24,369 nucleotides of DNA from IMG/VR virus record IMGVR_UViG_3300025652_006075, positions 1-24,369 of that record, one strand, 5' to 3'. The DNA comes from a virus. The translations under genes and the position numbers were made by a program. Below the pieces are notes generated by a model. It did no database searches and was not told the origin of the DNA. It saw only the letters and a list, made by a program, of their open reading frames with translations. Shown here in pieces: positions 8,629 through 23,661 of the stretch (its first letter is position 1; each line of letters starts with the position of its first letter).

Positions 8629-9020
8629 TAATTAACCTCTATAGGGTGGTATGTGTTTTCGTTAAGTAAGTTCGACACTTCAAATACAATTGCCGGATCA
8701 AGCTGATGTTTCCAGTTGCTGTTATGACATATGTGAAAGTGGCAGTCACGGCAAGCAAGAACAATATTAGCATCGACAAGAGCCATGCTGCTATCCACAG
8801 AAACACTAATAAGATGATGACCATGCAAGTCCTTATCATCCCGACAATGGTAACAATGATACTCTCCATTACTTTTGGCTGTTCGTTTATACGCTCGCAT
8901 AAATTTAGAATAGGCATAGCTCCTACGCAATCCTCTAGTAATTCCCCTAGGGTTTCGAAAGATCTCTTCAGCTGATCCATAGTTTCTTCTCCAGTGGTCA
9001 TAAATTTCTATTAGGTTCAT
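8628..9020 (-). CDS. HNH endonuclease (130 aa)
   Basis: The second half carries a zinc-bound HNH fold: CYHC (56-59), HGHH (66-69), Asn85 in DANIVLAC, then CRDCH (90-94) with further His at 96 and 99. The first half is basic (many Arg) and probably binds DNA. It starts in an ATGA overlap with the upstream gene and ends in a TAATG overlap with the metallophosphoesterase. It is either a free-standing homing nuclease or a phage nuclease with a packaging or host-DNA role. The tight couplings suggest an established member of the operon rather than a recent insertion. Confidence 0.82.
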   Translation of the reverse strand: MNLIEIYDHWRRNYGSAEEIFRNPRGITRGLRRSYAYSKFMRAYKRTAKSNGEYHCYHCRDDKDLHGHHLISVSVDSSMALVDANIVLACRDCHFHICHNSNWKHQLDPAIVFEVSNLLNENTYHPIEVN

Positions 9021-9370
9021 GTAGATTTTTCCATCTGCTCTTTCAAAATATCTATAACAGCCTCATTGAAGACGGCTTGCTCCATGTCTCCTGTACTTTC
9101 GTAAACTGAGGCAGACTCCGGCGTAAGACTATTGTTGAGCCAAGACTTAATTAGTTTCAATCTTAACTCATCGCTTACAGCTATTTCTATTATTTGATTA
9201 TCCTCTTTCATAGCCTCAACAAGCACCTCAGCATTTCCATAAATCCAGCAATCGCCCTCATGTGACAAGTTATGTTCGCCTTCAACATATCCGCCAACGC
9301 CGCCCTTTAAAACGTCGCTAAAGTCTCTTAGTGCTTTGACTCTGCCGCCTACAATTTCGTATTTTCTCAT
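9017..9370 (-). CDS. 117-aa protein with a shortened beta-helix-like start
   Basis: I place the start at ATG 9370, not at the upstream in-frame GTG, because AGAAGGGG lies just before it and it follows the stop of the upstream gene. The first 50 residues (for example RVKALRDF, GGYVEGEHNLSHEGDCWIYGNAEV) match a pattern common in phage proteins that form left-handed beta helices with repeated N-A-x-V units. Here only the entry segment is present and a charged helical half follows. The stop overlaps the HNH start (ATGA). The function is unknown; the protein may be a cut-down relative of the longer repeat proteins. Confidence 0.6.
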   Translation of the reverse strand: MRKYEIVGGRVKALRDFSDVLKGGVGGYVEGEHNLSHEGDCWIYGNAEVLVEAMKEDNQIIEIAVSDELRLKLIKSWLNNSLTPESASVYESTGDMEQAVFNEAVIDILKEQMEKST

Positions 9371-9375
9371 CACGC

Positions 9376-9579
9376 TTACCCCTTCTGAGGGTGGTAGTAC
9401 CATTGACTATCCCTATGCTCCTCAAGCGTTCCCGCTTTCCTCCATAAGTCATGCCTCTGGTTCTCCCATGACTGCCACTCAATAATTTTATCCACGAGTT
9501 CATTCATCGACTCGCCGCTAAGGGTCAATGAATAATCAGAACCCATTCTAATCTCTGCTTTAATCTTCAAATCTTTCAT
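9376..9579 (-). CDS. small protein of 67 aa, unknown
   Basis: No family is recognised. The protein begins MKDLKIKAEI, has a predicted beta stretch (YSLTLSG), a helix (ESMNELVDKIIEWQSW) and a Trp/Tyr-rich end. It overlaps the upstream 70-aa gene by 4 bases (ATGA) and its last codons hold the ribosome site for the next gene, which supports a real, coupled gene. Function unknown. Confidence 0.55.
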   Translation of the reverse strand: MKDLKIKAEIRMGSDYSLTLSGESMNELVDKIIEWQSWENQRHDLWRKAGTLEEHRDSQWYYHPQKG

Positions 9580-9788
9580 TCAATTACCCCTTTAGTTTTC
9601 TTCCACTGTGAACTGTCATCTGCATTATAGAATACAGCCTCACCTGTAGGCTGCTTAAGTTTTAAGGCTACTAACTCTTGGTAAGTATTTTCTATGTAGG
9701 CTGATTTTTTGGTCATTACTGCAACCAAATCTGTATAATCCTCTATTAATTCTAAGACTATCTCAGTTGCTTCTCGACTTAGCTTCAT
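9576..9788 (-). CDS. small helical protein of 70 aa, unknown
   Basis: The product is almost entirely helical and charged (MKLSREATEIVLELIEDY..., then a Lys/Glu-rich second helix) with no metal-binding or catalytic motif. It is the first gene downstream of the non-coding region at 9789-10187. GAGAGAG lies before the ATG. It overlaps the next gene in an ATGA arrangement, so it heads a small sub-operon whose promoter probably lies in that region. Function unknown. Confidence 0.55.
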   Translation of the reverse strand: MKLSREATEIVLELIEDYTDLVAVMTKKSAYIENTYQELVALKLKQPTGEAVFYNADDSSQWKKTKGVIE

Positions 9789-9823
9789 TTATCACTCTCT
9801 CGGTTTAAAAATTTAAGCGGTTC

Positions 9824-9838
9824 GGTAGTATTACTACC
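9824..9838. repeat. 15-bp perfect palindrome
   Basis: GGTAGTA-T-TACTACC is a perfect palindrome with one central base. It lies 36-50 bases before the start of the 70-aa gene on the minus strand, where an operator would be expected. Confidence 0.6.
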
Positions 9839-9840
9839 AA

Positions 9841-9872
9841 TTTGGCCGATCTTTTGGCCGATCTTATCCACA
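9841..9872 (+). promoter_or_regulatory. two tandem TTTGGCCGATCT 12-mers and a DnaA box
   Basis: Two exact copies of a 12-mer run head to tail (9841-9852, 9853-9864), each with a GATC site. They are followed directly by TTATCCACA (9864-9872), identical to the strongest E. coli DnaA box. This arrangement resembles parts of replication origins. A single perfect box can occur by chance, so origin function is an inference. Confidence 0.5.
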
Positions 9873-9885
9873 AGTTCATATTTAT

Positions 9886-9912
9886 ACTGTGTTCACAATA
9901 CATGAACACAGT
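9886..9912. repeat. 10-bp inverted repeat, 7-base spacer
   Basis: ACTGTGTTCA (9886-9895) is repeated in exact inverted form as TGAACACAGT (9903-9912). It lies 14 bases from the DnaA box. On the minus strand it is followed by TATAAATA rather than a T run, so it looks more like an operator next to an A/T-rich promoter element than a terminator. Confidence 0.6.
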
Positions 9913-10087
9913 CCTTTCTTAACTTTTCTGTGTATCATCTCTGCAGCACAGTCTGCGTAGTTTAATCACGTCATTAGCTGAGGTCGAAAATCATTCATTA
10001 AAGTCGAAAAGTGTGCTAATTATGCTTTTCCTGTCGACTCGGCGCACACTCCACCCAATAAACCTAGATCCCATTATCATTTCTCAC

Positions 10088-10189
10088 CTAATCCTCACTG
10101 CTCAGAGGCGTCATGTTATTACTTGCACGAACCTTGGCAAACATAGCTTCGATAGCATCTACAGAATCACGTGCATCCCGTAACCTTAC
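10088..10189 (-). pseudogene. possible frame-shifted C-terminal tail of the 107-aa gene
   Basis: Reading on the minus strand one base back from the 107-aa frame, the codons give VVRLRDARDSVDAIEAMF and about 15 more residues, ending at TAG 10088-10090. The composition is like a real helix. No in-frame ATG, GTG or TTG start precedes this part, and no clear slippery heptamer is seen. The likely explanations are a one-base insertion or two-base deletion in this genome, a sequencing error, or a chance open stretch. Confidence 0.35.
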
Positions 10190-11126: not shown

Positions 11127-11688
11127 TTATACTATATCACACGATATAGCACCACCACAGGCATATTCCTGTGATCCGGTAGTGTTATCTTCAACCTCGT
11201 AGCCTACAAAGGCAGACCAGTCTACTTCTACTTTCTCCATAGAATCATACTCCTCTTTAGTTATCTGTTGTTCAGGTGCTTGCTTATAGACATGGTCATC
11301 ATACGGTAGGAAGCTTATGCCTGACACTTCTTCAAAGTGCCTGAACACCCATGCACCAACATCCATCCACTCTGTCTCCCGCACTGTGATAGTACAGGAA
11401 GGCTTATGCTCACACCAATGATTCTGATACAGCAGCCATAACTCTAGCTGTTCTATTGCTGACATAGTTCCCTTAGTTATTGCTACTTCAGCAGACTTCT
11501 TAGGAAAACTAAACACAACAGTGTCTCCAGAATTAATGTCAGGTTCATTAGGTACTCCCTGATCCTTTAGGAACTGAGTGATAGGATCTTGTAACGAATT
11601 ACGTACAGTACGTATGTAGTACTCAGCTGGCGCAGCGTGTATGCCTGAACTAGAGTCTACTAACTGTGATACTGTACCACTGGGCTTA
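11127..11688 (-). CDS. nrdJ: class II ribonucleotide reductase, exon 2 (C-terminal part)
   Basis: Exon 2 of the split reductase starts at 11688 with the last base of a Val codon, then KPSGTVSQL, the conserved P-S-G-T-V loop of the active site. It continues with the usual I-R-T-V-R segment and a long Glu-rich region, and ends in ACGGAISCDIV, where two Cys close to the C-terminus act as the shuttle dithiol in this family. The ATG codons at 11702 and 11699 lie in the intron end, so the apparent separate start MMNNC is not used. The 562 bases join the 1349 bases of exon 1 in frame to give 636 aa. Confidence 0.88.
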
Positions 11689-11984
11689 CAATTGTTCATC
11701 ATTAGTCGTTACCTAATGACCGCTTAAGGCGGTAGTAGTGTGTTTTACTAACATTTCTTACCTCTTAGCTGCTTACGGTTTCCCGCAAGATCGGACTATA
11801 TCTTCATCCCTAAGGATGTTCGGCACTTCCACTCCACTTGGAGCGTACTTCGTCTTCACGAATAGTCTCTGAACCTTCCTCCGTAGAGGCTTGGATGCTG
11901 ATTGCCTTATCAAATGACTTAGGTTTCCAGCAGTTCACCGAATTATCCTTCACAGCTTACGCTGCTAGGGCGCTAAATTCCTCA
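11689..11984 (-). ncRNA. group I self-splicing intron without ORF, in nrdJ
   Basis: The 296-base insert interrupts nrdJ between Val450 and Lys-Pro-Ser-Gly. The 5' exon end CUUGCGU (11985-11991) pairs over 7 bp with the guide GCGUAAG (11956-11962), with the expected U-G wobble at the splice site. The intron ends in G (11689). The core has the P7 strands GGUUCAGAGACUA (11863-11875) and AAGAUAUAGUCC (11793-11804), the J8/7-type residues of T4-like introns, a 7-bp hairpin with a GAAA loop (11771-11790), and P9-type hairpins. It carries no ORF, and the exon 1 frame hits a stop after 9 intron codons, which excludes an intein. Confidence 0.88.
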
Positions 11985-13333
11985 ACGCAAGTTATAGATA
12001 CTGACTGATTGATACCTAACTTCTTAGCCCATACTTTATTAGTATCAATAGCTACTTGCTTTAACTCTTCAAGAGCAGAACCTAATTTATTAGTAAATGA
12101 ATTCCTACCATTTAGCAGTGGGTGATCCATGATACCTGTAAGGCTCACACCTAAGAGTCGTTCTTCTTCACAGTTTATTCTCCACTCTTTTGACAAGTAT
12201 CTGAAATTGGTGAGTGTGCTTTGGAGAGTGCCAAGGATTGTAGCAGCCTCAACTTTTCCTCTAAGCTCGTCGAGAGTATCTTCAGGTCGAATGACAACTT
12301 CAGACAAGTTGCAGAACTGCCTGTCTCTAAGGATAATTTCACTGCACGGGTTAGTTCCGAAATGAGGGTAAGGTTCTCGTCTACCAGTCCTTGCAGCTTG
12401 CCTATCTGCTGCGCCTCTGTAAAAGATACCACGTTCTCCTGACTTTGACTCATATAAATCCACCCAAAATTTCATAAAGATTGACGTATCTGGCTTCTCA
12501 GTAAAAGCCACGCTGTTGTTTGCTAGTGTCCGTTGAGGATCTAGGTTGTAGAACTTACCGTGCTTGGCTGTTGCCATGCGTTGATCTGTTAAGTTGCTGA
12601 GACTAATCATAGCTGATCTGCGTACACCGCCAACTACAACGGCGTCAGCTATGTAACAACATATGTCATGGCATTCAATACTAGTTAAATTACGACCCTC
12701 TTCAGTGTCTTTAGAAGCCCTCTCGAATACACTTACAATCTGCTTCATCAACATATCAAGTGGCTCTGGGCCACTAGCCCTACCACCAAATGTCTTGAGC
12801 CTAGAACCCTTAGCACGTACCTTACTAAGATCCCACTTAGGTATATGTCCTGAGTATAGCATGGCTATCAATTCTTTTATGGCTCTAGCCCAACCAATTT
12901 TAGAATCAGCTACTACTATTGTAGTGTCAGTATCATACAAACCTGTAGGTACTTCTGGTAGCTTACTAATAAACTGTCGTTCTACACTGTAGCCTACACC
13001 TGTACCACATAAAAGTATGTAGGCTAACTCATCAAAGGCTCGTATCCTATTGATGTGTAAGTAAGCACAATTGTATCCTGCTACATTATCTCTATCTAAT
13101 GCTTCACCACTAGTCATTAGTGCTCGCATTGATGGCATTACTTCTAAGTCTATTACTTGTTTCTGTAAGTCCTTAGCTTGCTTCGTAGTCAGTAACTCTT
13201 TATCTATCCAGTAATTAAAATATCTACTTACTGTTTCATTCCAATTTTCTCGTCTGCCTTTCTCTGGCATCCACCTAGCGTAGCGACTCTGGTGTATGAA
13301 AGACTGATAGCCATCTAATTTTTTGTTGCTCAT
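11985..13333 (-). CDS. nrdJ: class II (B12-dependent) ribonucleotide reductase, exon 1
   Basis: Exon 1 encodes residues 1-449 plus two bases of Val450. The enzyme reduces ribonucleotides to deoxyribonucleotides with adenosylcobalamin and works without oxygen. Seen: NCAYLHI (first redox Cys89), GTGVGYSVE, GGVRRSA, the FGTNPCSEIIL block with thiyl Cys330 and Glu332, and FCNLSE with Cys341. Together these fix the NrdJ family. The true C-terminal part is exon 2. GGAG lies 9 bases before ATG 13333. It follows the PP-loop gene by 20 bases and precedes the kinase-like gene. Class II enzymes are frequent in marine phages. Confidence 0.9.
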
Positions 13334-14567: not shown

Positions 14568-15320
14568 TTAAAAATCCCCAAAGCGTGTTTTTGCTATACT
14601 CTCGATCATGTTTAATCGTAAGAATGTCTCATCACCCAGCGTTGTATCTTTTCTGGTTTCGTTCCAGTGCCGCCTTGCCTCATCGATGGAGAAGTAGCGG
14701 CAACCTGCTTTTATCCATAATTCACCATCTTTTATCTGGCCGTAAAACTCGTAACCGTCTGAGCGTTGACCGCCTGATATGAGATTAGCGTAAACGAGAT
14801 CAGCGCCACCGAGACTAGCGCCACGGAGGTCAGCGTCACGGAGATTAGCGTCACCGAGATTAGCGTCACGGAGATTAGCGCCACTGAGATTAGCGTGACT
14901 GAGATCAGCGCCACCGAGATTAGTGCCATAGAGATAAGCGCCATGGAGATTAGCGTCACCGAGATTAGCGTAAACGAGATCAGCGCCACTGAGATTAGCG
15001 TGACTGAGATCAGCGCCACCGAGATTAGCGCCATAGAGATGAGCGCCATGGAGATTAGCGTGACTGAGATCAGCGGCACCGAGATTAGCGCCATAGAGAT
15101 AAGCGCCATCGAGATCAGCGCCACGGAGGTCAGCGCCACTGAGATTAGCGCCATAGAGATGAGCGCCACGGAGGTCAGCGCCACTGAGATTAGATTTGTT
15201 TTCTAATCCCCACTTGACCGCCAGTCCGAGCTTAATAGGATCACTTTCGCTTTCGTCACAATTGATCTCTGTGGTAAATTGAACGATTCCTGTGAATCTA
15301 TTTTTAACTTCGTATTTCAT
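14568..15320 (-). CDS. pentapeptide-repeat protein (250 aa)
   Basis: Residues of about 43-185 are a run of A(D/N)LxG-type pentapeptides (SGADLRGAHLYGANL and variants), which fold into a right-handed four-sided beta helix. The ends differ: residues 1-40 form a small beta/helix domain and residues 186-250 a C-terminal domain (ELWIKAGCRYFSIDEARRHW). The latter resembles the extra domain found on other phage and plasmid pentapeptide proteins. Some such helices mimic DNA and bind gyrase (Qnr, MfpA); others have unknown roles. It lies upstream of small unknown genes and downstream of the resolvase. A role against host topoisomerase or restriction is possible but not shown. Confidence 0.85.
   Translation of the reverse strand: MKYEVKNRFTGIVQFTTEINCDESESDPIKLGLAVKWGLENKSNLSGADLRGAHLYGANLSGADLRGADLDGAYLYGANLGAADLSHANLHGAHLYGANLGGADLSHANLSGADLVYANLGDANLHGAYLYGTNLGGADLSHANLSGANLRDANLGDANLRDADLRGASLGGADLVYANLISGGQRSDGYEFYGQIKDGELWIKAGCRYFSIDEARRHWNETRKDTTLGDETFLRLNMIESIAKTRFGDF
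14777..15190 (-). repeat. 15-bp DNA repeat array inside the pentapeptide-repeat gene
   Basis: About 27 imperfect copies of a 15-bp unit (minus-strand form G-C-x-A-A-T-C-T-C with variable ends) encode the pentapeptides. Several units are identical or come in larger repeated blocks, so the array probably grows and shrinks by slippage or recombination. The repeats also keep the other frames open, which makes shadow ORFs on both strands. Confidence 0.8.
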
Positions 15321-17470: not shown

Positions 17471-18247
17471 CTACGCACATTCTCTATTGTAACCCCAGTT
17501 AGTATGTACCTCTTGGTCTATAGCTACTGGGTAATTTATATCTATGCCATAAAGATCCCTCATATATTGTAGTGTGTCTGTTACCATAGCTTTTTCTGAA
17601 AGCTCTGTTAATATATCATGCTCATCTGGGTGCTGCTCTATTACTACGCTATCGTGTACCTCATTCACTAGTAAACTTTTTAGTTTATGGCTCTTCATCT
17701 GATGCCATAACATGAACGTGCCTATCACTGCTGTCTCACCTGTTGCCATGTACTGTACATTGTAGTTCTTAATCTTAGTATGACCTGTGACATTACCGTT
17801 CTGCTGATATGTAGTGTTTGGGAAATGAAATATCAACCCTGTTCTTGCTACTACTTTACCTGTGCTAGCGGCTTCTGCCATCAACTTTCTGTGCCATGCT
17901 GAGATCCCTGCGTATCTCCTACGGAAGAACTCATAGTACTTACGTTGTTTAGGTGTACCTGACTCACCTCCGAATAAGGGTTTGAATGTATCTGCTTTAG
18001 CAGCAGTGCGGAGCTTACCTCTTTTAGGATCATCTAATGCTAATCCAGCATACTCATCAAAGAGTACAGTAGCCGTGTTACTGTGTACATCCTCACCATT
18101 GTTAATATCAATTAATGCCTGTTCATCCTGAGCTAAGAATGCTGCCATTCTAAATTCCATCTGAGCATAATCATTCTGTCTTGTCATCCAGCCATCATGT
18201 CTAGCAGTAACTACTTTCTTCAGCGTTCTATCTATATTTTGTAAGTT
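17471..18247 (-). CDS. family A DNA polymerase, exon 2 (polymerase domain)
   Basis: Exon 2 (258 aa) starts at 18247 with NLQNI, which joins RLSSSSP of exon 1 to restore the conserved R-L-S-S-x-x-P-N-L-Q-N motif. It contains motif A (NDYAQMEFR), the O-helix (RTAAKADTFKPLFGG) and motif C (VNEVHDSVV). In the O-helix both aromatic positions are Phe: the site equal to E. coli 762 is Phe, and the usual Tyr766 is Phe. Motif C has Ser after His-Asp, as in many phage enzymes. The apparent start MQSTG at 18280 lies in the intron and is not used. Confidence 0.88.
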   Translation of the reverse strand, partial: NLQNIDRTLKKVVTARHDGWMTRQNDYAQMEFRMAAFLAQDEQALIDINNGEDVHSNTATVLFDEYAGLALDDPKRGKLRTAAKADTFKPLFGGESGTPKQRKYYEFFRRRYAGISAWHRKLMAEAASTGKVVARTGLIFHFPNTTYQQNGNVTGHTKIKNYNVQYMATGETAVIGTFMLWHQMKSHKLKSLLVNEVHDSVVIEQHPDEHDILTELSEKAMVTDTLQYMRDLYGIDINYPVAIDQEVHTNWGYNRECA

Positions 18248-18940
18248 CTTTTGTGTTACGTCTATCCCTGTACTCTGCATGTTACCATGCAGTTCAGACT
18301 ATATCATCACCTGCTCTTTCGCAACAGGTGCAATGCGCTTCGGGTACTGTCCTTTTCCCCTACGCCTTTCGGCTAGTCGTTGCACGTTCTAATTGATGTA
18401 ATTTCATATGAGCACCAGCTACACATAAAGCAAGATTAGTCAAACTATTGTTTGTCCTATCTTTGTTGACATGATGAACGTGCCAACCTTTAGGTATACA
18501 TTTAAGACCAAGTGCCTCACACATTACTATGTGATGCACAAACACATGTTTACAACCCTTCCTACCTTCGTACCAATCAGGTTTTAAAGTCATTATATAA
18601 CCTTTACCATCAGATACTTCACCTATGTAGTTATGGTGTAGTTCTCGTGTCTTACCCTTCATAGGGTTCTTATTCCCTAACTTACTATTCCTATAGTTAG
18701 CTACCTTTCTGGTCTTCTGTGCAGCTTTAGAGTAATGCTTAGATACGTAATAGTGTACCTGTGCATATGTCTTACCAGTAGCTTCAGCTATTTGTTCAAG
18801 TGTTAGTTGTGTTTTCTCATATAATCGTTTTACATCTTTCATTATGTACCTCCAAAGGTAGATATGATATTAGCTTCGCTCAGGATTGTCCCATAGGGAG
18901 TTCCCCTGAATTCACATTGTTTTAATCGCCCAACTTATTT
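18248..18940 (-). ncRNA. group I intron with HNH ORF, in the DNA polymerase gene
   Basis: The 693-base intron splits the polymerase between SSSSP and NLQNI. The 5' exon end AUCGCCU (18941-18947) pairs with the guide GGGCGAU (18925-18931), with a U-G pair at the splice site. The bases just before the guide, UAAGUU (18932-18937), pair over all 6 bp with exon 2 AACUUA (18242-18247), which is P10. The intron ends in G (18248). Core signs are CAAUCCUGAGCGAAGC (P4-P6 strand), GACUA pairing with GAUAUAGUC (P7), a UUCAG/CUGAA P3, and a 7-bp hairpin with a GUAA loop (18275-18292). It carries its own HNH gene. Confidence 0.92.
18360..18842 (-). CDS. intron-encoded HNH homing endonuclease
   Basis: The 160-aa protein lies inside the polymerase intron, before the P7 strand. 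It has an N-terminal helix-turn-helix-like part (TLEQIAEATGKTYAQVHYYV), a NUMOD3-type segment (SKLGNKNPMKGK), and an HNH core with HVHHVNKDR (121-129), Asn in TNNSLTNL, and His145 and His149. A strong GGAGG site stands 7 bases before ATG 18842. Its last codons overlap the intron's P7 5' strand, so gene and ribozyme share sequence. The enzyme would cut intron-free polymerase genes of related phages and so spread the intron. Confidence 0.88.
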   Translation of the reverse strand: MKDVKRLYEKTQLTLEQIAEATGKTYAQVHYYVSKHYSKAAQKTRKVANYRNSKLGNKNPMKGKTRELHHNYIGEVSDGKGYIMTLKPDWYEGRKGCKHVFVHHIVMCEALGLKCIPKGWHVHHVNKDRTNNSLTNLALCVAGAHMKLHQLERATTSRKA

Positions 18941-19951
18941 AGGCGATGAACTAGATAGCCGCTGTGTAGCAGTCGTTGCTTGGTTAATACTACCCCACAT
19001 CAAACAGTCGTTACCTTCAATATACTCCTCAAATTTATTGTGATATGTGCTTACCCGTTTACCTGTCTTATGGTGTCTACTAATTAGATCAAGTATATTC
19101 CGCTGCTTTTTATTTTTTGGTTTCAATAACGCCAGAGTAGTTGCATCCGTCTTACCAGATCCATTCTTATTAAGTAGAGGTTGTCTACGTACTTGTGGTA
19201 TATCAAATCCAGCATCTTCATATAAGAACTTACTTACTTGCTTAGGTGAGTTCCAGTTAATGCCACCAGAAATTTCATCTAACTGCTCAAGTATGTCTAG
19301 TAGTTGTCTATTATCTTCCCTAGACAGTGTTTTAGCTAAATCTTTATCTAAAAACATCCCATTCATTTCCATATCTGCTACTACTGGGCAGAAAACATTC
19401 TTAGTATACGCCACATTTAATGCACCAGAGCTACGCAGAGCCTCAACCTGACGTTTAAATATAAACTCTGTATCATATACGTCTTTAATAACTCGACGTC
19501 TCAGTAAGCTCTCAGGCATCTCTGATGGGCATACCTTACCTTTCATTAGTAAGTCAACTAAATATTCTTTAGCCGTACCACCGTATCTGAGACTCACACT
19601 TCCTAAATCTAGTGGTTTATTTCTGTTGCTGAGGATTACCTTTTCACTAAGTAACGTGTCATATATTAGAATGCTGCTGACATTAATCCCATTTTTAATA
19701 AAATACTTTAACTCAAATTTAGCGTTATGAGCAACAATAAAATCATAGTCACCCTTAGATACTGTCTCTAGTATGCTGTCTGATGGATGGTATTGTATCT
19801 TACCATCTCCCAATTTACTGGCTGCACACACTATTCTGTTATCATATCTTGCATCTCCTTTTTCAATGTTGGTAGTCTCCAAATCTAAGACAAGGGCTTT
19901 ACCTTCTAGGTAAATATTAGGATCAGGGTTTGATACGAATTTAGGCAACAT
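18941..19951 (-). CDS. family A DNA polymerase, exon 1 (3'-5' exonuclease domain and thumb)
   Basis: Exon 1 encodes 337 aa. The start is ATG 19951 (MLPKFVSNPD) because a perfect AAGGAG stands 10 bases upstream, inside the end of the HNH-AP2 gene; the longer form from 20017 would overlap that gene by 77 bases. Seen: ExoI VLDLETT (Asp23, Glu25), ExoII FIVAHNAKFEL, and an ExoIII-like segment with IKDVYDT. At the usual ExoIII Tyr (4 before the Asp) there is Arg. The exon ends in QATTATQRLSSSSP, the start of the dNTP-binding region. With exon 2 it gives a 595-aa polymerase. Confidence 0.88.
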
Positions 19952-20414
19952 GTGGAGCGAACTCCTTAGCATATTTTTTCTTCGCCTTGAGATACGCGAA
20001 GTGGGCGGCTGTCTCACATTTAAAATATCCTAGAAAAGTCGTCTTACCTTGATGCTGGATCTGTGCTCTCCACTTACCCCTAGTCCAGCAACAGCCTTTC
20101 GCCTCAATGTTATGCAAATTTTGCGTCCGTGTGGCTAGTCGTAGGTTTTCGATGCGATCATCCGATTTAGGGGCGTCGTTATCAATATGATCGACATCAA
20201 GCCCTTCTGGAATTTCCCCGTTTAACATGATCCAGATAAGTCGATAGCGTAGGTAGTCCTTACCGTCGACCTTGACTTGAACCCTTCCGTCAGGCCTGCG
20301 CGTTCCAGCACTATCACCAACCTTAGAGCTTCGTCCTCGACCGCTAACTTTGCGTATTAACTCCCCATCTCTATATTCAAACAAATTATTCAGTTTCTCT
20401 TTCATTTTACTCAC
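19941..20414 (-). CDS. free-standing HNH endonuclease with AP2 domain
   Basis: The 157-aa protein has an HNH_3-type core (LDVDHIDND at 72-80, ENLRLATRTQN) and a C-terminal AP2 DNA-binding domain (about 107-150: KGCCWTRGKWRAQIQHQGKT, LGYFKCETAAHFAYLKA). The HNH-AP2 pair is typical of free-standing phage homing nucleases. The start is GTG 20414, 8 bases inside the helicase gene (GAGG nearby); ATG 20405 is an alternative. Its end overlaps the polymerase start and holds the polymerase ribosome site. By eye it is richer in G+C than the helicase and polymerase, which fits insertion. Confidence 0.85.
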   Translation of the reverse strand: MSKMKEKLNNLFEYRDGELIRKVSGRGRSSKVGDSAGTRRPDGRVQVKVDGKDYLRYRLIWIMLNGEIPEGLDVDHIDNDAPKSDDRIENLRLATRTQNLHNIEAKGCCWTRGKWRAQIQHQGKTTFLGYFKCETAAHFAYLKAKKKYAKEFAPHVA

Positions 20415-21606
20415 TAGTCAATACCTCGTTCGTCTCATATTTCATAACTACCTCAAAGGGTGCGAGCGGTGCTGTCAGTTTGTTTTTAGGGAATGCAAAC
20501 ATAGCACCACCTATTTCTTTCATGGTTGCGTTTTGACCAACCCCAATCATCAGATCCAACTGGGCTGCAAAGCCCGTGTTACTGTATTCAACGTCAGTAT
20601 AATCAAGTATCAATTTACCACTAGCACTATCGCCAGCTTGTGTTACAACGATTGAGACTAAATTATACTTCTTAGCTAATGTCCTACCTTCCTTAGCTAG
20701 TGTGTTTAAGGCGTCTGTGAGTCCAGTATCTTTACTTCCTACCCTCATATTTCTTAGCTGATCCACGATAATGACATCGGGCTTTAGATCTTTTACATAT
20801 TGTTCAATTTCAACCATAGTTCCAGGACTTAAGCTAATGAAAGTAAAATTAGCAAGTCCTCTCTTCATTGCAGCGTCATATGCCCCGTTTGGGTTAGCTA
20901 AGATCTTATCCCTAGTTGCTTTCAGGAACCTTGTATACGCACGTAATATCATAACGCTGTCAGGATCCTCATTACCAAAGAACACTACCTTATAGCCCTC
21001 TATACAGGCTTGTACTGCTATATTGATAGTAACAGTACTCTTACCTATGTCAGGTCTTGCAACTACACCTACCTGCGACTGTCTAGGCACTCCACCTCCT
21101 AGTAAATCATTTAACTTTTTTGGGTATATTGGAATTAAATTATCAGACAGTAAAGTGTCTGTTAACTCGCCAATATTGGGTGCTGTATAAACAACCGCTT
21201 CTTCGCCATCCTCTACTAGTGTCGAGGCTTTACTATACTGCTCTACTAGTTTAGCTAACTTTACTAAGTCACCAGTTCCCGCAGCTATAGCCATGTCATG
21301 CGATAGTTTTTCTTTGTGTTGATCAATGATCAACTCAATAACATTAGCATCTGAAACGTTAGTTACAATATTAGCGATATACTCGATAACGGATTCTTTT
21401 TGCTTTGGCAAAGATTTTACTAATCTTTCACCAATCAACGCTACATCCACAGTGTCTGCATCACTGTCTATTGAATAAAAGTTACTTATTTCTTTGAAGA
21501 CAGCTTTTCCTATTGCTGGCATGGTATTGGTATCAAGATAAAGGGTAGTTTTATTAAACCAATCTCTACTACTTGCACAAGCCGATAATATTTTATGATC
21601 TAACAT
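20407..21606 (-). CDS. DnaB-like replicative helicase
   Basis: The 399-aa protein has a helical N-terminal domain (1-140) like that of DnaB and a RecA-like C-terminal ATPase. Walker A is ARPDIGKST (183-191), the H1 region. Walker B is DVIIVDQL (about 277-284), followed by LVSIVVTQ, a motif H3 form, and NTGFAAQLDL. The final Gly of the classic G-x-x-x-x-G-K is kept, and the first Gly is Ala. It lacks a primase domain; the primase is a separate gene. It starts 2 bases after the acidic 84-aa gene and overlaps the HNH-AP2 gene. Confidence 0.88.
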   Translation of the reverse strand: MLDHKILSACASSRDWFNKTTLYLDTNTMPAIGKAVFKEISNFYSIDSDADTVDVALIGERLVKSLPKQKESVIEYIANIVTNVSDANVIELIIDQHKEKLSHDMAIAAGTGDLVKLAKLVEQYSKASTLVEDGEEAVVYTAPNIGELTDTLLSDNLIPIYPKKLNDLLGGGVPRQSQVGVVARPDIGKSTVTINIAVQACIEGYKVVFFGNEDPDSVMILRAYTRFLKATRDKILANPNGAYDAAMKRGLANFTFISLSPGTMVEIEQYVKDLKPDVIIVDQLRNMRVGSKDTGLTDALNTLAKEGRTLAKKYNLVSIVVTQAGDSASGKLILDYTDVEYSNTGFAAQLDLMIGVGQNATMKEIGGAMFAFPKNKLTAPLAPFEVVMKYETNEVLTSE

Positions 21607-21608
21607 TA

Positions 21609-21863
21609 TTAACTCTCATCTAAGAAATTTTCGTAATCTTCCTCAGCTTCTTCGACAAGATCTTCAATGCATGATTCATTAAGCATAGGTAGTATTTCAG
21701 TATTACTGCCAACTTCTACTACGTTATTAAGCCAAATATCCCAAGGTTTAACATTACGTTTACCTACTGCTCCTTCATATATTTCATATGTAACACTAAC
21801 CTCTAAATCTTTAATATTAGTGTAAAAAGACCTTTCAAATGCTGAATCTATTAAGTTAGACAT
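21609..21863 (-). CDS. acidic protein of 84 aa, unknown
   Basis: No family is recognised. The N-terminal half is beta-like (NIKDLEVSVTYEIYEG), and the C-terminal end is strongly acidic (IEDLVEEAEEDYENFLDES). It overlaps the sigma-factor gene by 13 bases, so the two are translated together. An anti-sigma or sigma-partner role is conceivable but the sequence gives no direct sign; a helicase partner is equally possible from position. Confidence 0.55.
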   Translation of the reverse strand: MSNLIDSAFERSFYTNIKDLEVSVTYEIYEGAVGKRNVKPWDIWLNNVVEVGSNTEILPMLNESCIEDLVEEAEEDYENFLDES

Positions 21864-22561
21864 TCTTTTCTAGCCTCACTTTCTTTGTAATAAGTCGGAT
21901 TAAATCCATTTTCTTGTTTGTAAGTAGGTTTTACAGCTAAATTTTTAATTGTTATTCCCTGCCACGCTCGTTGTTCCAAAGCAGGATCTACACCTAGCAG
22001 CATTTTACGCGCTCTTAAAATTCTAACTTTCACAGTACTTGCAGAAATACCTAGTAGCGCGGCAATATTTTTGTAAGACATCTCCCTGTATGAGTATAAC
22101 CAGATCGCGTCACGGTATATGGTGGGTAGCTCGCTAATCTTCTTTATTATTTGCTGTAAATCTTGCTTACTTTCCATAATCCGCTCCGGTGTGTTAAAAA
22201 TATGATCACTGGTTGCAGTGTCTAAACTTTCGTTTGTTGCAGGTGTCATATCTGCTGCATGTTCATTAGCAAACTTTTTTTCTTTTTCAAAGAAACGATA
22301 ACAACAGTTTTTAGCAATTCTGGTAGCCCATGTCAAGAATGATGCATCACCTTTAAAGGTCTTTATATGTTTAAAAATACGTGTAAGTGTATCTTGATAC
22401 ACATCTTCCAGGTTTTCATGTGATGGTGCGTTTTTCATTTCATTTGAAATCTGCATTCGTATCTTTTGTCCATATATTTTAATTAAATCTGCAAATGCTT
22501 TTTTATCTTTTTGTTTAGCTAATTGAATAAGTCTAGTTTCTACTTGTTTATTAATATTCAT
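21851..22561 (-). CDS. ECF-like sigma-70 family factor
   Basis: The 236-aa protein shows both core sigma domains. Sigma2 is at about 21-95, with LEDVYQDTLTRIFKHI, FKGDASFLTWATRIAKN and the basic RFFEKEKK. Sigma4 is at about 135-188, with SELPTIYRDAIWLYSYREMSYKNIAALLGIS and the HTH helix STVKVRILRARKML. There is no region 1 or 3, so it is ECF-like. A 50-aa tail of unknown role follows. The start ATG 22561 lies downstream of an A+T-rich regulatory gap with two palindromes. It could redirect host RNA polymerase to phage promoters. The last bases overlap the 84-aa gene. Confidence 0.85.
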   Translation of the reverse strand: MNINKQVETRLIQLAKQKDKKAFADLIKIYGQKIRMQISNEMKNAPSHENLEDVYQDTLTRIFKHIKTFKGDASFLTWATRIAKNCCYRFFEKEKKFANEHAADMTPATNESLDTATSDHIFNTPERIMESKQDLQQIIKKISELPTIYRDAIWLYSYREMSYKNIAALLGISASTVKVRILRARKMLLGVDPALEQRAWQGITIKNLAVKPTYKQENGFNPTYYKESEARKECLT

Positions 22562-22589: not shown

Positions 22590-22662
22590 GCGAGCCTTAA
22601 AGCTCGCATATTTAATTATAGTATATAGTATGTATATATATAACGAACCTTTAAGGGTTCGT
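22590..22662 (-). promoter_or_regulatory. sigma-gene promoter region with two related palindromes
   Basis: Two palindromes flank a TATAAT box (22615-22620 on the minus strand). Plus-strand forms: GCGAGCCTTAAAGCTCGC (22590-22607) and ACGAACCTTTAAGGGTTCGT (22643-22662). Both share CGA-x-C, a TTAA centre and the mirror image, and their centres are 54 bp apart, about five helical turns. The right one overlaps the -35 position, the left one the transcript start. They look like operators, with hairpin formation in RNA as another option. The flanks are runs of TATA. Confidence 0.6.
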
Positions 22663-22821: not shown

Positions 22822-23661
22822 CTAATACTTCCATCCTGAATCTAAATATGGAAAAATACTGCGCCGAATAAGGGTTATAGGCATCTCTTTTGGATCAACA
22901 TTTGACGTATTTGGTATCACTGTTATCGGTAAAATATGCCGCAAATCGCTTGCAATTTTATATGCTTTGTCAGTAGCATCTGTATCTAACCATAGTAACA
23001 CCTCCTTAAATCCGCTATTTTTTATACTCAGTAAATCTGTTTCGTTCATATTTGTACCAAGTAGGGCCGCAACTGGGCATACTTGCTTTACTTTAATAGA
23101 AGATAAGGGGTCTTCAACTACTAATAATTTATTTGGTGGAGGATCATAACGATCTACTCCCTTTGGAAAATACAACAATGGTCGATTTTCTTTTACATAT
23201 AAAAAGTTTTTTGGTGTGTGTTTAGTTATCACGCCTATATTTTTTAAGTAGTCTGCAACAACTTTGAAATTGTAGTCTATAATGTTTATGTGTAGATAAG
23301 GTTCACCACCTACCTCAGTAGATTTTATTCTGTTTACACGTAATATTTCGCCATACAATCCGCATCTATCTTGAAGATAGTTTATAGCCTTCTCAGTTAG
23401 CGCAGTAACATCACCATGCCAATGCTTGGGTGTAAACTCTTTTGACGTACCACGCTTGCCTACGGAGCTTACATCACCAATATATCCCCTCTTATTGCAG
23501 CTGGCACTAAAACACATATATTTTATTACACCTTCTTCCCGCAAAACAGTTAGAGTTTCCTCTTTGCTGTTTTTCCTCTGTTTACAAAAAGGACATACAG
23601 CCCGTATCTGGACTCCTATAGGTGCAGATTTTCCAATTAATTCAATTTCATCTAATAGCAT
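22822..23661 (-). CDS. DNA primase (zinc ribbon plus Toprim, T7 gp4 N-domain-like)
   Basis: The 279-aa protein has a zinc ribbon with CPFC (23-26) and CFSASC (50-55), and a Toprim domain with catalytic Glu183 in LLVVEDPLSS and DTD (226-228) in LLWLDTDAT. This is the order of T7-type primases, here without the helicase part, which is a separate gene. It makes RNA primers for the polymerase. The ribosome site is weak. It is followed by a 260-base regulatory gap, so it may end one transcription unit and sigma start the next. Confidence 0.87.
   Translation of the reverse strand: MLLDEIELIGKSAPIGVQIRAVCPFCKQRKNSKEETLTVLREEGVIKYMCFSASCNKRGYIGDVSSVGKRGTSKEFTPKHWHGDVTALTEKAINYLQDRCGLYGEILRVNRIKSTEVGGEPYLHINIIDYNFKVVADYLKNIGVITKHTPKNFLYVKENRPLLYFPKGVDRYDPPPNKLLVVEDPLSSIKVKQVCPVAALLGTNMNETDLLSIKNSGFKEVLLWLDTDATDKAYKIASDLRHILPITVIPNTSNVDPKEMPITLIRRSIFPYLDSGWKY

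Follow-up and report, generated by a model that had tools for sequence, protein, structure and literature searches.

An ECF-type sigma factor in the replication module of an apparently VpV262-like phage fragment and its putative use of the host RNA polymerase

How are the replication and late genes switched on in phages of the T7 supergroup that have no RNA polymerase of their own, and what part might a sigma factor gene play that lies between the primase and helicase genes of such a phage? The locus raising this question was found in IMG/VR record IMGVR_UViG_3300025652_006075, which was analyzed as a whole (24,369 bases; referred to as the window). The record is linear and hence a genome fragment; about half of the genome is missing, including most structural genes and the early genes beyond the primase.

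ECF (group 4) factors of the sigma-70 family possess regions 2 and 4 without a region 3 between them, bind core RNA polymerase and start transcription at specific promoters. The minus-strand gene in the window, which a first-pass annotation had delimited exactly and described as a phage-encoded ECF-like sigma factor with clear sigma2 and sigma4 domains, encodes a small bacterial-type ECF sigma factor of 236 residues. In HMM searches both regions scored above the curated Pfam cut-offs (Sigma70_r2, E 7.5e-12, 45.3 bits against 24; Sigma70_r4_2, E 1.4e-15, 57.1 bits against 25.7), no match to region 3 (PF04539) was obtained with Pfam, and the protein matched phrog_1740 'RNA polymerase sigma factor' in PHROGs (E 1.1e-27) as well as TIGR02937 sigma70-ECF in NCBIfam (92.1 bits against a cut-off of 42.9). 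By homology, region 2 would mediate core binding and -10 recognition, and region 4 would mediate -35 recognition. The best solved relative is E. coli RpoE (1or7; E 1e-17, residues 9-188) and the best named NCBIfam relatives are PRK11922, RpoE and SigW; the protein differs from RpoE and SigW in that it scores below the equivalog cut-offs, as for all named relatives, carries an additional C-terminal tail and has no recognized anti-sigma gene adjoining it, the neighboring 84-residue ORF being without Pfam or PHROG match. A cognate anti-sigma gene beside an ECF sigma gene is usual, though not universal. The tail, estimated earlier at about 50 residues and measured here at 48, indeed yielded no known domain or family match, and its residues 205-236 are predicted to be disordered (pLDDT <50) in a single-sequence AlphaFold2 model, which was of low confidence and below the quality needed for a fold search. 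Matches in phage databases were all below 60% identity (23-31% among the matches listed). An IMG/VR search with the window protein alone returned no relatives, and a search with the window protein paired with that of L034 recovered only L034.

The minus-strand module comprises, in this order, primase, sigma factor, 84-residue ORF, DnaB-like helicase, HNH nuclease and DNA polymerase A, the last in two pieces around another HNH nuclease, followed by a 172-residue ORF and an exonuclease (Table 1); farther along, the sequence reads as a RuvC-like protein. The 84-residue ORF overlaps the sigma stop by 13 nt and ends 2 bases before the helicase, and it is probably co-translated with the sigma gene. 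In the left part of the window, plus-strand genes converge on this module; judged by position, they would represent the end of a VpV262-type structural cluster. The first-pass annotation had spoken of a T7-type replication module. A replication module it is, with primase and helicase as separate genes, as in VpV262; T7 gp4 is the fused primase-helicase form. The order primase, helicase, polymerase A, exonuclease and the converging replication and structural clusters likewise match VpV262, and judged by helicase the isolates closest to the window are vibriophages of the Zobellviridae (33% and 30% identity), so that the phage appears to be related to the Zobellviridae (VpV262-like).

Table 1. 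Features of the sigma gene and the surrounding replication module (window coordinates)
Feature	Position	Strand	Basis or remark
DNA primase	22822..23661	-	phrog_47
Palindrome/hairpin ACGAACCCTTAAAGGTTCGT in sigma leader	22643..22662	-	
Palindrome/hairpin GCGAGCTTTAAGGCTCGC, then TATATATTAT, in sigma leader	22590..22607	-	
ECF-type RNA polymerase sigma factor, 236 aa	21851..22561	-	ATG start; Pfam, PHROG, NCBIfam and PDB sequence matches
Sigma region 2, residues 46-96	22274..22426	-	Pfam PF04542; aligned to E. coli RpoE
Sigma region 4, residues 136-188	21998..22156	-	Pfam PF08281
C-terminal tail, 48 residues (189-236)	21854..21997	-	no family match
84-aa ORF	21609..21863	-	no Pfam or PHROG match
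DnaB-like replicative helicase	20407..21606	-	phrog_19, Pfam
HNH nuclease in helicase/polymerase gap	19941-20414	-	phrog_99; overlaps the called GTG start of the polymerase
DNA polymerase A, upstream piece	18935..20017	-	Pfam, PHROGs
Segment splitting the polymerase gene, with HNH nuclease	18281-18934	-	phrog_7545
DNA polymerase A, downstream piece	17471..18280	-	Pfam, PHROGs

The window had been said to contain no phage RNA polymerase, and this was borne out for the T7-type enzyme: PF00940 was detected in none of 19 records, among them the window and sigma-bearing relatives of nearly full length, nor in four further sigma-bearing records, the T7 control being found at E 9.9e-110 in both runs; a run over 50 related records, which lacked a control signal, was likewise negative. 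Because the window is a linear fragment, this does not establish that the whole phage lacks the enzyme. The Zobellviridae or VpV262-like group has been described before as having no RNA polymerase (PMC6775973, PMC9960094), as has SIO1 (PMC6775973).

Relatives were collected from IMG/VR with alignments of the helicase (80 loci) and of the DNA polymerase (another 77 loci, a few of them on contigs already seen). Pfam region 4 was above the cut-off in seven records of the helicase set and three of the polymerase set, and a profile built from the sigma proteins of the module added L021, L033, L041 and L051; among these four, the Pfam ECF model also accepts L033, L051 and L041. With near-identical contigs counted as one, a sigma or sigma-like gene is thus present in at least 14 uncultivated relatives (L009/L010, L015, L020, L021, L033, L034, L041, L046/L048, L050, L051, L061, L148/L149, L156 and L202). 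In most of these it lies between primase and DNA polymerase, and in L149 and L156 just before the primase. The proteins are of several types: a divergent mini-sigma family is encoded directly after the helicase in L009, L015, L020, L021, L033, L041 and L051; L046 and L050 carry another type; the L061 protein (9006-9779, plus strand, between primase and helicase) has regions 2, 3 (PF04539) and 4, a FliA/SigF-like architecture; and the window, L034, L149 and L156 have ECF-like factors, with only weak similarity between the window protein and the other three (E about 1e-5 to 4e-8). Since these types are not orthologous, sigma factors have probably been recruited repeatedly. The factor is not universal in the lineage, because this slot holds no sigma gene in many relatives, among them L063 and L007, close helicase relatives on longer contigs. 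On the helicase tree, sigma presence requires at least four changes when starred branches alone are counted, and no fewer than three gains or losses are needed for the ECF-like group; the place of the window is unsure, as its row is a long branch. The suggestion that the sigma factor replaces a T7-style RNA polymerase is not supported in the sense of an evolutionary replacement: absence of the polymerase had already been described for the group, many relatives carry neither gene, and the sigma genes have undergone several gains or losses.

Two cultured members of the Zobellviridae (Citrovirus), a family without its own RNA polymerase (PMC4505115, PMC9960094), also have a sigma gene in the replication module, like the window. 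Citrobacter phage CVT22 gp45 is annotated as 'RNA polymerase sigma factor' (phrog_1740, E 3.3e-24), its announcement naming a 'sigma transcription factor' (PMC4505115), and Klebsiella phage Klyazma orf044 as 'putative sigma factor' (phrog_1740, E 3.6e-4); each lies between primase/helicase and DNA polymerase. Given these annotations, a sigma factor in the Zobellviridae replication module is already on record. The two proteins differ from that of the window in being about 160 residues long and in following a primase/helicase annotated as one gene. TGA stops seen within their phrog_1740 matches were a false lead and were taken to fall outside the genes, since the records annotate ordinary open genes (31061-31540, 32411-32890). 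In the open-licence literature we found neither a functional test of gp45 or orf044 nor a paper discussing the role of the module's sigma factor in Zobellviridae. No phrog_1740 match was obtained in VpV262, SIO1, RIO-1, P12053L, ICP2 and two further vibriophages; Vibrio phage VpV262 and Roseophage SIO1, both Zobellviridae of the T7 supergroup without RNA polymerase, differ from the window in this respect.

Promoter-like repeats were found in several of the relatives. G010 (48.9 kb) has precisely three copies of CCCACGTGTTATATA, one immediately before the sigma gene (21291, minus strand), one immediately before the primase (23492, minus strand) and one on the opposite strand (35527, plus strand). 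In G031 (47.3 kb), GTCAGAA-N9-TCACCTGTTCTTT likewise occurs exactly three times, before the sigma gene (8241, minus strand), before the primase (10702, minus strand) and upstream on the capsid-bearing strand (22370, plus strand; capsid at 33774, plus strand), and after low-complexity filtering its 13-mers are the only ones present at three places genome-wide. G015 has nearly identical copies at the sigma gene and the primase and a weaker third one (8370, minus strand), and G016 has the variably spaced GTCAGAA-N13..16-GTCTATA in three places, before the sigma gene, before the primase and at position 258 (plus strand). In G010 and G015 the opposite-strand operon is putatively structural, no capsid gene having been seen directly downstream on the contig. 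In an ungapped test of primase-upstream against sigma-upstream regions, L015, L020 and L041 scored 15.0, 16.9 and 17.1; none of 277 comparable pairs taken from 33 relatives that lack a sigma gene exceeded 14.6, and other genes of these three genomes gave 9.7-11.9. L010 (9.0) and L021 (7.9) were not outstanding in this test, and the bipartite sequences in L009/L010 and L021, which were picked by eye and are not significant ungapped, are weak on their own. The ECF-type relatives G061 and G066 both have AATGTCACAAA followed by AAACGTT-ATAT-type elements before the primase, and in G066 TTATATAATACTAA is present twice before the primase and once at base 19 (plus strand), upstream of a terminase gene (2477, plus strand); these sequences were given less weight because the stretch is very AT-rich. 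Overall, the layout appears strong in G010 and G031 and similar but weaker in G015, G016 and G066, and the predicted promoters would fit an autoregulated sigma factor that drives replication and late genes via the host RNA polymerase.

The palindrome TTCACACGTGTGA of G015, G016 and G010 was also considered as a promoter and set aside as operator-like. It has many copies in G015, with related copies in G010 and G016 (L120:8797-18403, also L124 and L127-L128), and looks like an operator or protein-binding array. Palindromic repeats of the TACGTATAACAA type occur in the first 7.4 kb of the G061 contig (L219:2535-7368).

In the window itself, the regions upstream of primase and sigma gene share no common motif (score 6.4; 95% value of shuffled sequences 9.1), and the start of the late operon, that is, of the plus-strand cluster, lies off the contig. 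The leader of the sigma gene contains the only two copies of CGARC-N4..9-GYTCG in the window, both of them identical with the palindromes of Table 1, which fold as RNA better than shuffled sequences (z -2.8). In phage 7-11, a stem-loop has been proposed before the sigma gene (PMC8948821). A pairwise comparison of intergenic regions yielded for the window only a conserved core common to two intron-like regions, and for CVT22 no repeat above shuffles; as the same comparison did not recover the known promoters of 7-11 on 50 kb, its negative results mean little.

The control of transcription through a sigma factor that steers the host RNA polymerase is already known from other phages. The sigma factors gp36 of phiEco32 and gp47 of 7-11 form holoenzymes with the host core that recognize middle and late, or late, promoters; eight late promoters were mapped in 7-11, for which feedback on the sigma gene was proposed, and the two phages acquired unrelated sigma factors while promoter locations were kept (PMC8948821). 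They resemble the present case in combining a small phage sigma factor and host RNA polymerase with two opposed gene clusters, and in having promoters before sigma and late genes (PMC8948821), like the predicted sites in relatives of the window. They differ in their genomes of 78 and 90 kb and in their replication proteins. The gene for phiEco32 gp36 also sits in a minus-strand replication/nucleotide cluster and its product matches phrog_1740, as does the window protein, to which it is only 17% identical; gp36 has no region 4 homologue (PMC8948821), in contrast to the clear region 4 of the window protein.

With this precedent, we think it likely that the window gene encodes a phage sigma factor redirecting the host RNA polymerase to replication and late genes, where core binding, promoters and targets are inferred. 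An early or middle transcript shared with the 84-residue ORF and the helicase would give rise to the factor, which would bind host core RNA polymerase and direct the enzyme to a few phage promoters, the likeliest targets being the sigma and replication genes themselves, in positive feedback, and the late operon on the opposite strand; it would thus act as the early-to-late switch in a lineage without its own RNA polymerase. The position of the gene, flanked by primase and helicase and overlapping the following ORF at its stop, speaks for this role. Host RNA polymerase steering appears the most likely function, because relatives without RNA polymerase carry a sigma gene at the same spot, several with promoter-like repeats, and thereby repeat the phiEco32/7-11 pattern with other sequences. 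The extension from the relatives' factors to that of the window is itself presumed, and the window factor is not orthologous to the sigma type with the best promoter evidence. The first-pass proposal that middle or late genes are controlled through the host enzyme is therefore plausible and backed by the relatives' sigma factors and repeats and by phiEco32 and 7-11; for promoter targets of the window factor itself, no common motif lends support.

Other functions of a phage sigma factor were weighed against this one. As the protein resembles bacterial RpoE/SigW-type factors, and a passage in PMC9429907 describes sigma factors of Bacillota phages that alter host dormancy programs, it might mainly redirect host genes such as stress or envelope regulons rather than phage late genes; we consider this unlikely, given that the gene is placed inside the replication operon and that the promoter-like repeats of the relatives precede replication and late operons of the phage itself. 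It seems quite improbable that the gene is a passenger (moron) acquired from an ECF locus of a host and dispensable for the phage program: the patchy distribution, with the empty slots of L063 and L007 and the multiple gains or losses of ECF-type factors on the helicase tree, would agree with such an origin, but the same module is occupied repeatedly by different sigma types, the sigma stop is coupled to the next ORF, and the protein has diverged for long from any relative in the phage databases, as its low identities indicate. Finally, the protein could shut off host transcription by sequestering the host core RNA polymerase instead of being a promoter-specific initiator, in keeping with the lack of a detected own-genome promoter motif in the window and with Xp10 P7, which a passage in PMC3985653 places among the phage proteins displacing host sigma; the helix-turn-helix of region 4, needless for core capture alone, is well conserved, and we regard this function as very improbable.

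Beyond the single locus, we give about even chances to the idea that, in the branch of the T7 supergroup that lacks an RNA polymerase, unrelated sigma factors (ECF-type, divergent mini-sigma family and region-3-containing type) have settled repeatedly in the replication module, each with its own small promoter set at sigma gene, primase and late operon. In that branch, the part of T7 RNA polymerase would then commonly be played by a reprogramming of the host enzyme through exchangeable sigma-promoter pairs, and the window would be one independent case. Such pairs fit the prediction that further sigma-promoter pairs would turn up (PMC8948821), and those of the relatives are apparently unreported; in open-licence papers we found no report of recurring unrelated sigma factors with predicted promoter sets across uncultivated VpV262-like phages. 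Nor did the open-licence literature yield an explanation of how late genes are switched on in phages of the VpV262/SIO1 type, although transcription in Zobellviridae was noted to require a different regulation, with phiEco32 being pointed to (PMC9960094). The module's sigma factors and the promoter sets predicted in several relatives provide a concrete hypothesis, testable in the cultured phages CVT22 and Klyazma.

Several further features of the window were recorded. A group I intron (RF00028, 89 bits, E 7.7e-22) is located at 11772-11994 (minus strand) between the ORFs 13333..11957 and 11702..11127, which look like exons of one ribonucleotide reductase gene. The end of the segment splitting the polymerase gene (GATGATATAGTCTGAAC...) resembles the core of this intron, at a score under the Rfam gathering threshold, and L012, L038 and L063 also have a divided polymerase, with the break in a comparable position and a short ORF separating the pieces. 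At 14568-15320 (minus strand), a pentapeptide-repeat-like protein is encoded, whose 15-base repeats extend over about 500 bases and leave long open frames in overlapping registers. A stretch of 400 bases without a called minus-strand gene (9789-10188, minus strand) contains the hairpin CTGTGTTCATGTATTGTGAACACAG and the direct repeat AAGATCGGCCAAAAGATCGGCCAAA, and is a possible regulatory region.
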